33,241 nucleotides of DNA, taken from positions 1 through 33,241 of the IMG/VR virus record IMGVR_UViG_3300038760_000027. One strand, 5' to 3'. The notes under the pieces were generated by a model. That model saw only the letters and a list, made by a program, of their open reading frames with translations. It did no database searches and was not told the DNA's origin. This DNA is from a virus. Shown in pieces: positions 16,709 through 23,710 of the stretch (its first letter is position 1; each line of letters opens with the position of its first letter). The translations under genes and the position numbers were made by a program.

Positions 16709-17470
16709 TTAAGCAGATTTAAGTTCTACTGCACACTCAGGTTGTAAGATACCGTGACCAACAGCGTACTTAGCAATCATAAGATTACCTTGTCTGCGCA
16801 TGTCGTATTCGGTTTCAATACCTAAGTCCATAAGCTTAACAGTACCGGCTGCATCCTTGTGGTAAACCAAACCCTGTAGGGTTGCGAAGTTACCTTGGTA
16901 TGCTGCAGGACCAGTCGTTACGTTGGTAGAAGGAAGTTGATTGGTCTTCACGAATGAAATACCGGCAACCTTTAATACCTTACCATCAGCGTAAACACCA
17001 GAACCACCCCAGTCACGATTAATGACATCAGTGGTCTGCGCTACTAAGTAGTATTGTGCAGGACGTAAGTTACAATAGCGGTCATCTTCAGGTGCGTTGT
17101 GTTCATCCAATGCTTGAGCAGCATCAAATACACCGGCAGCTATAGTAGAACCAGTCGTTGCATAACCTGCAGCGGTTAGTACCGTACCACCATCACCACC
17201 AGTAATCGTAGCTGCAGCACGAGCTGCAAGACAAATTACCTGTTGAACGTTAGCATCATATACATTAGAAAGCTTAGTACCTTGCTTCTTAGAATAGACA
17301 CCACGTACATCGTAGTGAGACTTAGCTTCATCGATGTTTGCAATAAACACATCAGACAATAGAACATCATCGATTACGATAACCTTCTCATTGTGAGCGA
17401 TTGCAGTACCAACGATTTCAGCACCTGGAGTATGATAAGCTGCGCTTGCATCACCAACTACTGGGAATTG
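16709..17470 (-). CDS. Major capsid protein, exon 2 (T7 gp10-like, residues 56-308)
   Basis: Main shell protein of the icosahedral head. This exon codes for 253 residues beginning QFPVVGDASAAYHTPGAEI and ending CAVELKSA. T7 gp10 has GKSAQFPVLGRTQAAYLAPGE at the same place, so the sequence continues exon 1 (ending NGKSA) exactly. Further T7-like blocks are EKVIVIDDVLLSDVFIANIDEA and HYDVRGVYSKKQG. Splicing out 17471-18055 gives an in-frame protein of 308 aa (T7 gp10A has 345). An open frame continues upstream to ATGs at 17482 and 17473, but those codons lie in the intron and have no ribosome-binding site, so I do not take them as starts. A strong terminator follows the stop. Confidence 0.95.
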   Translation of the reverse strand, partial: QFPVVGDASAAYHTPGAEIVGTAIAHNEKVIVIDDVLLSDVFIANIDEAKSHYDVRGVYSKKQGTKLSNVYDANVQQVICLAARAAATITGGDGGTVLTAAGYATTGSTIAAGVFDAAQALDEHNAPEDDRYCNLRPAQYYLVAQTTDVINRDWGGSGVYADGKVLKVAGISFVKTNQLPSTNVTTGPAAYQGNFATLQGLVYHKDAAGTVKLMDLGIETEYDMRRQGNLMIAKYAVGHGILQPECAVELKSA

Positions 17471-18055
17471 CATTATATTCATTAAGGTTCGTTACACCTT
17501 AATCGCCTTTCGGCTGCTGCATATTGCTATGCAGAGTAGACTATATCTTATTACTTTCTAAGTAAGTGATTGCAGACATTAATCTTTCAGGACTATCTTT
17601 TAATAGACCTAAAGCTGTGTTGCATTGTGTGCATAATAGACCTCTTACTCTGCCACTTCTATGGCAATGGTCTATAGCAAACTTGGTATATCGGGATGAG
17701 TTCATTTTAGAACTACATATACCACACTTACCCTGCTGCTTGATGAACATCTTCTCATAGTCAAGATTAGTTATTCCATACTTACGTACAGCTTCACGTT
17801 CCTTTACACACGTCTTACATTCGTTCTTATGTGTATTTGAATCTTTTCTAAAATAGTATTCGTCAAGAGGCTTTTCAGTCCCGCAGAGTTTACATATTTT
17901 TATGTTGTAATTTTCCTGTTTCCATCCACTTGGATGTACTCGCTTACGCGATAGTCGTTGAACGTTCCTACCTTTCGGTTAGGCTTCGCTGCTGATTGTC
18001 TCGTAGAGATGTTCCAGCAATTAAAGAAATGTTTAGAGAGAACCCAATTTTGTTA
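17471..18055 (-). ncRNA. Group I self-splicing intron (IA-like) in the major capsid gene
   Basis: 585-nt intervening sequence. The 5' exon ends in U (GCU) and the intron ends in G, as group I chemistry requires. P1: exon AGAGUGCU pairs with GGUUCUCU at 18044-18037, with a terminal G-U and one U-U mismatch. P4: GCUG 18018-18015 with CAGC 17994-17991. P5: UCUC/GAGA 18009-17999. P6: CCUA-CC with GAAA loop, 17983-17967. P7: GACUAU 17956-17951 with AUAGUC 17544-17539. P7.1: CGC-GUAA-GCG 17950-17941. P7.2: CAUCC/GGAUG 17936-17923. P9: CUGCAUA-GCAA-UAUGCAG 17534-17517. P9.1: GCC-GAAA-GGC 17514-17505. P9.2: AUUAAGG/CCUUAAU 17503-17481. P7.1/P7.2 and the P4-P5 segment resemble the IA introns of T4 td type. 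An HNH reading frame occupies the P8-side loop. Confidence 0.93.
17541..17750 (-). CDS. Intron-encoded HNH endonuclease (endonuclease VII-like)
   Basis: Probable homing endonuclease that would cut intronless capsid genes and spread the intron. From the first ATG the 69-aa product has GKCGICSSKMN, FAIDHCHRSGRVRGLLCTQCN and TALG, the zinc-binding and HNH core of the endonuclease VII family (C..C, DHCH, LLC..CN). The same frame stays open upstream for about 75 codons and encodes a typical N-terminal zinc ribbon (KICKLCGTEKPLDEYYF, then NECKTCVKERE) with no ATG, GTG or TTG in frame. The natural start may therefore be an unusual codon (AUA at 17903 or 17897, about 10 nt or more after AGGA), or the N-terminus may be lost. 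The stop codon TAG lies inside the P7 core. Confidence 0.8.
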   Translation of the reverse strand: MFIKQQGKCGICSSKMNSSRYTKFAIDHCHRSGRVRGLLCTQCNTALGLLKDSPERLMSAITYLESNKI

Positions 18056-18220
18056 AGCACTCTTACCGTTAGAGATATTACGTGTGCGATGCTTATCTTG
18101 CATCACATTTACATTGTCGTATGTTGCTATAATTTCACCGGAGTAAACTTTTAGAAACATAGAATCCACGTCACCGGCTTTATTTACTTGGCCTAGACGT
18201 GAGACTGTAGCAGCAGTCAT
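18056..18220 (-). CDS. Major capsid protein, exon 1 (residues 1-55)
   Basis: ATG at 18220 starts a 55-codon frame: MTAATVSRLGQVNKAGDVDS, then MFLKVYSGEIIATYDN, then HRTRNISNGKSA. T7 gp10 has LALFLKVFGGEVLTAF and SISSGKSA at the same positions, so this is the capsid N-terminal arm. The exon ends on a codon boundary; the first intron codon is TAA, so an unspliced transcript would give only this 55-aa fragment. AGGT lies 9 nt before the ATG, a modest ribosome-binding site. Exon 2 continues at 17470. Confidence 0.93.
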
Positions 18221-23260: not shown

Positions 23261-23710
23261 TTATGTCTCGTTAGTGGAACTATTAGTTAATAAAGTACTT
23301 CCTTCACGTAGAGCTTTATGCTCCAGTGCATGACAGTTAGCACATAGCAAGTGACACTTCTCTGCTTCAAGATGGTGTGCACTTCCTAGCGCAAACTTAT
23401 TACTATTAATACCTTGTTCCTTTAATGATGGGTCACCATGATGAAACACGTATACTTCCGAGTCATAACTCGCCTCGCATATCTCACACTTACCTCCTCG
23501 TGATTCAATGTAATTAGAGTAATTCTTTCTATTTGTTTTACGGGTATCAGAAGCTCTCTTATTATCACAGTCCTTACAGCGTGACTGTTTACCATCCCTT
23601 TCACGTTTACACTTACTAAATCTTTCGATAGGCTTAACTTCATCACAATTACCACAGCACTTCCTTGTGCGTAATAACCATACGTTAATGAGTCTGACTC
23701 CAGTTATCAC
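23261..23710 (-). CDS. Free-standing HNH homing endonuclease between pol and exonuclease
   Basis: Site-specific DNA endonuclease, probably a mobile homing gene. The product has an N-terminal zinc ribbon (RKCCGNCDEVKPIERFSKCK...RCKDC) and a C-terminal HNH module (KCEICEASYD, VYVFHHGDPS, CHLLCANCHALEH). The frame opens with GTG at 23710, 26 nt inside the DNA polymerase gene. No ATG lies between there and the zinc ribbon. GGAG at 23702-23699 followed 8 nt later by ATT (23689) could instead mark an AUU start just before the polymerase stop. The polymerase reading frame is intact and ends normally (GDNWSQTH), so this is an inserted neighbour, not an intron ORF. Confidence 0.8.
   Translation of the reverse strand: MITGVRLINVWLLRTRKCCGNCDEVKPIERFSKCKRERDGKQSRCKDCDNKRASDTRKTNRKNYSNYIESRGGKCEICEASYDSEVYVFHHGDPSLKEQGINSNKFALGSAHHLEAEKCHLLCANCHALEHKALREGSTLLTNSSTNET

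Follow-up and report, generated by a model that had tools for sequence, protein, structure and literature searches.

Several group I introns that carry an endonuclease gene have been described in phages. The T4 td intron interrupts a phage protein gene and holds the I-TevI reading frame, the 3' end of which extends into P7 and the ribosome site of which is sequestered by intron structure (PMC3073962). The intron in the SPO1 DNA polymerase gene has an HNH reading frame located in P8 with a small overlap of P8 itself (PMC3073962, table 1). A third case is the Cluster J mycobacteriophage LittleE, where a spliced group I intron interrupts the major capsid gene and is accompanied by a nuclease gene (PMC3706429).

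Here we describe a related arrangement in an IMG/VR virus record that is linear, 33,241 bases long and T7-like in gene order; all of it was analyzed, and it is called the window below. Its major capsid gene, located on the minus strand, is interrupted at 18055..17471 by a td-like group I intron that contains a nuclease gene with ATA in place of the start codon found in related introns. We regard it as somewhat probable that this is a mobile intron whose L8 nuclease, a member of the endonuclease VII family, is produced only in small amounts through weak initiation at AUA, with a Shine-Dalgarno sequence embedded in P3. Features of the locus are collected in Table 1.

The capsid gene intron and its nuclease

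The capsid exon-1 frame runs directly into a TAA that constitutes the first codon of the intron, and predicted splicing joins the two exons so that both the reading frame and the family sequence are restored. The resulting junction, NGKSA/QFPVVG, matches that of intronless relatives, which are uninterrupted across the site (for example ANGKAAQFPVMGRASA in L119). The intron covers the whole of Rfam model RF00028 with 47.3 bits (E 9.5e-11), which is 2.7 bits short of the 50-bit gathering cut-off, and the related introns L002, L003 and L270 score 74.4, 49.4 and 56.4 bits, respectively. We consider the group I core to be real despite the sub-gathering score since the exon junction, the U.G pair of P1, P10 and P7 all agree independently. 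With this core, the U.G at the 5' splice site and a terminal G read from the sequence at 17471, the insert is classified at the sequence level as a group I catalytic intron. We take its core to resemble that of the T4 td intron, including P7.1 and P7.2. Helix P8 occupies a homologous place across 16 introns, joining the segment that follows P7 to the segment just before J8/7, and its strands are better matched within than between introns (15.0 for native pairs versus 11.8 for pairs swapped between introns; 0 of 20,000 permutations, 16 introns). No close annotated phage genome with this intron was found in searches, which detected similarity to introns of phiKZ-type and other phages in the core alone.

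Starting at 17978, immediately after the TAA at 17981..17979, the HNH frame remains open as far as the TAG at 17543..17541 and encodes KICKLCGTEKPLDEY..NECKTC from 17900 onward. A frame scan bore out the claim of the initial annotation that this frame has no ATG, GTG or TTG 5' of Met52 (17750). The same annotation had described the product as an endonuclease VII-like HNH protein with an N-terminal zinc ribbon, an assignment that stands: the reading frame matches Pfam PF02945 (Endonuclease_7) at 1.9e-25 and phrog_2633 at 6.5e-37 and retains the DH, N and Cys4 residues that, together with the profile, place it by sequence in the PF02945 family. The N-terminal ribbon cysteines C4, C7, C29 and C32 do not vary among 26 relatives and are conserved as strongly as the catalytic core, where D78, H79, N95, C60, C63, C91 and C94 are also invariant among relatives. 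An AlphaFold model gives a pLDDT of ~96 for residues 1-30 and 88.6 overall. Searches of the PDB align Hpy99I residues 76-196 with residues 2-116 of the window protein, a region that includes both zinc ribbons, and match T4 endonuclease VII to the core; global TM-scores on the query reach only ~0.43 to 0.46 for the structural matches, which leaves the local core and the sequence as the basis of the fold match. Because the ribbon is invariant, confidently folded and matched over its full length by Hpy99I, the protein must begin at or before the N-terminal ribbon. A scattered distribution and insertion sites that are nearly identical fit an intron-borne homing role for this putative nuclease.

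The window also contains a second HNH gene (23261..23710, minus strand; phrog_2255 match, 7.5e-26) with a similar Cys4 ribbon that is apparently freestanding, and the GTG start of which overlaps the 3' end of the DNA polymerase gene.

Table 1. Location of capsid exons, intron helices and nuclease features in the window.
Feature	Position	Strand	Evidence or remark
Exon 1, major capsid protein gene (MTAATVSRLG...RNISNGKSA)	18056..18220	-	Joins exon 2 in frame as in intronless relatives
Exon 2, major capsid protein gene (QFPVVGDASAAYHTPG...)	16709..17470	-	Sequence; comparison with relatives
Group I intron, 585 nt, td-like core with P7.1/P7.2, ORF in loop L8	17471..18055	-	RF00028
P10, AAUUG adjoining the guide, with exon 2 CAAUU	18049..18045 with 17470..17466	-	Read from sequence
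Internal guide sequence GGUUCUC	18038..18044	-	P1 with exon 1 GAGUGCU (18062..18056), U.G at splice site
P3 5' strand UUUCUU	18024..18029	-	Inferred pairing with 17917..17912; Rfam alignment consistent
P3 3' strand AGGAAA	17912..17917	-	Also the only Shine-Dalgarno-like run 5' of the ATA
P7 5' strand GACUAU	17951..17956	-	Rfam alignment
P7 3' strand AUAGUC	17539..17544	-	Contains the TAG stop of the ORF (17543..17541)
P7.2 hairpin, CATCC (17936..17932) with GGATG (17927..17923)	17923..17936	-	Includes out-of-frame ATG 17925; same hairpin in L208
P8 5' strand AUUAC	17907..17911	-	Pairs with GUAAU 17554..17550
P8 3' strand GUAAU	17550..17554	-	Within 3' end of ORF
HNH (endonuclease VII family) ORF, 120 codons plus stop from ATA	17541..17903	-	Frame, profiles, relatives
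ATA at the homologous start codon of the HNH gene	17901..17903	-	ATG in L208, L002, L053, L169; L287 MKICKLC
N-terminal Cys4 zinc ribbon (CKLC...CKTC)	17808..17900	-	Conserved in all relatives; AlphaFold; Hpy99I
GGGACTGAAAAGCCT hairpin, GAAA tetraloop, in 5' coding sequence	17868..17882	-	Codons unusually conserved across clade
Beta-beta-alpha-metal core, second Cys4 site (C60, C63, C91, C94), DH..N catalytic residues intact	17553..17777	-	

The homologous start codon and its initiation signals

Protein, alignment and conserved-DNA searches of viral contigs recovered a clade of capsid-gene introns that carry the same nuclease (clade A). Alignment with these related intron proteins, as the initial annotation had proposed, maps the start in 15 of the 17 distinct clade A proteins to the window's ATA or slightly upstream: their ATG precedes the lysine codon just after the ATA by 3 to 24 nt, and is thus either the homologous codon or a codon up to ~8 codons upstream. 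The closest relative, L208, encodes a 69.5% identical protein, is inserted at the same site (GGTAAGAGTGCT^CAATTCCCAG) and is represented by 12 contigs that are identical around the start. The L208 start reads ...AAAAGGAAACATAT ATG AAA ATA TGT while that of the window reads ...AGGAAAATTACAAC ATA AAA ATA TGT, a single G-to-A difference at the start codon. The ATGs of L002 (ATG AAG AAA TGT), L053 (ATG AAA ACA TGT) and L169 (ATG AAA GAA TGT), like that of L208, align gap-free with the ATA, and the freestanding relative L287 begins MKICKLC. As the ATGs of relatives align there, the homologous start codon of the window's HNH gene is, on this alignment, the ATA at 17903..17901. Loss of the ATG is specific to the window sequence, and a pattern scan for a second contig with the ATA, or for a matching ATG form, returned only one unrelated match and the freestanding L287, in searches from which near-identical records may have been absent. 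A start farther upstream in the frame, in the style of clade B (below) or L275, is blocked by stops at 17981, 18023 and 18035. Homologues beginning at the methionine of KMFIKQQG, the outcome that the initial annotation had set against an upstream start, are not seen; homologues include the ribbon, and Met52 aligns with internal Met, Leu or Phe residues. With an ATA at the family start position and no alternative before the conserved domain, the window's HNH gene qualifies on sequence as a candidate AUA-initiated gene.

The only other clade A member without a nearby ATG is L275 (L206 1938-2460), where GTG and TTG are likewise absent from the vicinity of the zinc ribbon; here the frame crosses the entire core without a stop from a TTG just past the exon-1 stop, a clade B-like arrangement. 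Additional variation occurs in insertion. The related introns of L002 (L276) and the window are offset by 9 bp within the same capsid codons (GGT^AAGAGTGCT and GGTAAGAGTGCT^CAA), which amounts to a small site shift between related nucleases. In L174 (10700-11068, reverse strand numbering) a freestanding nuclease relative with the GGGACTGAAAAGCC stretch is located directly 3' of the capsid gene.

The AGGA at 17917..17914 is separated from the ATA by 10 nt and forms an anti-Shine-Dalgarno duplex of -4.3 kcal/mol, an energy similar to that of ATG-bearing relatives. The suggestion that the start is buried in intron helices divides into two parts: the start codon itself is not buried, being 3 nt past the P8 5' strand in loop L8 and outside the core helices, whereas the Shine-Dalgarno AGGA is part of the P3 3' strand. 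In L208, L270 and L276 the ribosome site is located in L8 between P8 and the ATG, and the window is without such a site. Because AGGA belongs to P3 and L8 has no Shine-Dalgarno, the window would combine a non-AUG codon with a ribosome site that is available only with P3 open. Initiation at AUA occurs at a few percent of the AUG level or less. Non-AUG starts together with poor ribosome sites are a described means of down-regulating intron reading frames (PMC3073962).

At the other end of the gene the TAG stop is located within the P7 3' strand, as initially annotated, and this placement is ordinary for the family, being found also in L275 and the majority of clade B introns. Elsewhere in clade A the frame mostly passes the P7 3' strand and terminates at a TGA or TAA 6 to 18 nt later, while that of L272 stops before it. 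The "core creep" idea predicts a 3' end that varies in this way (PMC3073962). In L265, L266, L269, L272, L273 and L276 there is complementarity between the first Cys-Arg codons (TGTCGC or similar) and Arg-His codons close to the 3' end of the reading frame (GCGACA), and these could possibly form an extension of P8 built from coding sequence at both ends. The 5' coding sequence also contains a hairpin (GGGACTGAAAAGCC in most members), closed by a GNRA loop in all but one of the 17 clade A members and with compensating changes in L279 (GAGGUU-GAAA-AACCUC) and L228 (GGGGUU-GAGA-AACCCC). The Thr, Glu and Lys codons of this hairpin vary far less than most others (ACT 12/13, GAA 15/16, AAG 14/16) and its folding is somewhat stronger on average than that of synonymous shuffles (mean z -1.34); it is possibly an RNA tertiary contact or a start-proximal element.

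The intron, its exon junction, the positions of P3, P7 and P8, the homologous start codon and an intact, constrained protein can be read directly from the DNA. In the AUA reading, the ATA at 17903..17901 would function as the start in place of the ATG present at this codon in relatives, and L8 would carry a putative two-zinc-ribbon homing nuclease of the endonuclease VII family that is synthesized at a low level from either unspliced RNA or the excised intron. With AGGA doubling as P3, folding of P3 would block the Shine-Dalgarno and initiation would compete with the folded core, a competition that may throttle the nuclease and shield splicing of the abundantly needed capsid message. If correct, this would be a compact natural throttle on a selfish nuclease in an essential, highly expressed gene, with ribosome and ribozyme contending for the same six bases.

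Decay and other readings of the start region

Among the three options originally offered for the start, namely an AUA codon, a +1 frameshift and a gene in decay, AUA is best supported by its alignment with the ATG of relatives, the frameshift fails, and decay is tenable only if it is very recent. Gain-and-loss cycles of homing nucleases are well established, and it is a serious possibility, if one we consider less than probable, that a homing cycle has here reached fixation, that the ATG has become ATA and that the nuclease is no longer made from a coding sequence that is still clean, with the intron persisting because splicing continues. The missing ATG and the absence of a Shine-Dalgarno in L8 of the L208, L270 and L276 kind fit this scenario, and the latter weighs against AUA initiation, as do the low rate of initiation at AUA and the long 10-nt spacing from AGGA: a two-step loss of initiation signals would look alike in a gene that has just died. 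The coding sequence limits how old such a loss could be. A stop would arise from about 5% of point mutations, and half of neutrally drifting frames would have been lost by 0.04 substitutions per site, so the gene was evidently under selection until recently, and its clean frame is compatible with loss within ~0.04 substitutions per site. Against L208, pN is 0.228 and pS 0.651 (dN ~0.27 and dS ~1.5, the latter near saturation), and 53 of the 110 differences are at third positions (29/28/53 by codon position). In a leave-one-out comparison the window keeps 36 of the 37 columns in which at least 90% of the other members agree; the single departure is a Thr-to-Ser change also present in L228, and relatives depart 0 to 4 times, which is to say that there is no excess deviation at conserved positions. 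There are no further lesions in the 120 codons, the catalytic and zinc residues are intact, and all relatives examined have intact coding frames. On the basis of the invariant columns and of dN versus dS, a pseudogene that has lost coding constraint is rejected. If the gene is nevertheless dying, the window captures the first step of nuclease loss.

The remaining readings appear much weaker. The true population could contain an ATG, the base in this contig being wrong or rare; the ATA is indeed present in a single metagenome contig while nearly all other clade members have ATG. Substitution errors are rare in assembled contigs, however, the absent L8 Shine-Dalgarno would still need explaining, and the large reading frames of the window (capsid exon 2, portal, internal virion protein and polymerase) are unbroken, making this explanation unlikely. 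Translation from the Met at 17750, the first in-frame ATG, would yield a 69-residue nuclease without the first zinc ribbon, and to our knowledge T4 endonuclease VII also has no ribbon of this type ahead of its core. We reject this start as very improbable given that the ribbon is conserved in all relatives and confidently folded, that Met52 aligns with Met, Leu or Phe inside a helix, and that there is only a weak ribosome site, GAGAAG, directly before the ATG. The initial annotation correctly noted an ATG at 17925 in another frame that reaches a stop after 11 codons close to an A-run (17901..17897), and proposed a +1 shift from it into the HNH frame. Such a shift, or a one-base indel in the run, would give a product, METGKLQHKICKLCG, similar in length to the N-termini of L273 and L278. 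This ATG is however part of the P7.2 3' strand; in L208 the same hairpin and ATG open a dead 8-codon frame with a clean, real ATG farther downstream, and there is no known +1 shift motif. The frameshift is consequently rejected and we attach next to no likelihood to it.

A sister clade and comparison with known systems

A sister group, clade B, comprises 18 distinct capsid-gene introns (the L177-L198 set) that have a different core and are inserted at the same GKSA^QFP site that L208 uses; among those scanned, most match RF00028 below its gathering score. In 17 of the 18 (L177, L178, L179, L180, L181, L182, L184, L185, L187, L188, L189, L190, L192, L193, L194, L196 and L198) the endonuclease start lies within the P1 loop, adjacent to the exon-1 stop at the 5' splice site, and the frame continues through the ribozyme core. 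This frame is free of stops over ~125 nt of the P1-P7 core, other than the exon-1 stop itself in frame-0 cases, while other frames through the core have 1-5 stops. For reference, the largest overlap tabulated in a review is 81 nt (PMC3073962). The phase of the nuclease start relative to exon 1 is 0, +1 or +2, variation suggesting that a start next to the stop has been maintained independently. Amino-acid selection was not detected on the core-coded stretch (third positions 0.248 versus 0.218/0.234, p = 0.32), and protein-level selection on this extension is rejected as third positions are no more variable than others; only the open frame and the start appear to be kept there. A start in the P1 loop next to the exon-1 stop suggests termination-reinitiation coupled to capsid translation. 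A limited literature search found no description of this arrangement, which is not proof of novelty.

We tentatively propose, while judging it rather more apt to be wrong than right, that T7-like capsid introns set nuclease output by where the start is positioned relative to ribozyme helices. The window, with AUA in L8 and its Shine-Dalgarno in P3, would represent the lowest setting, while in clade B ribosomes would re-initiate after exon 1 on the unspliced message and translate through the P1-P7 core. If so, nuclease synthesis and splicing would be mutually exclusive for each RNA and nuclease dosage would track capsid translation. Clade B offers a ready test of how far a reading frame can creep into a ribozyme.

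The systems nearest to the window are the introns of its own clade in T7-like contigs (L208, L002, L053, L169/L270, L265, L273 and L278), which share the host gene and nuclease but have an ATG at the homologous codon or at most ~8 codons upstream, L275 alone being without one. Among described introns, T4 td resembles the window in interrupting a phage protein gene, in the extension of the endonuclease gene into P7 and in a ribosome site sequestered by the intron. I-TevI is however a GIY-YIG enzyme encoded in P6 with its start behind a dedicated hairpin, whereas the window has an endonuclease VII-type HNH gene in L8, an AUA and a proposed sequestration by P3. The SPO1 intron shares the HNH reading frame in P8 with its small overlap, but differs in host gene and nuclease subfamily, that of the window being a two-ribbon endonuclease VII, and in the AUA at the window's start position. 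Hpy99I and T4 endonuclease VII share the beta-beta-alpha-metal core, with Hpy99I alignable over both zinc ribbons, yet the former is a restriction enzyme and the latter a resolvase, and neither is intron-borne. Finally, LittleE combines, as the window does, a nuclease gene with a group I intron that interrupts the major capsid gene, but its capsid is of the HK97 type and its nuclease is encoded on the opposite strand and is not endonuclease VII-like (PMC3706429).
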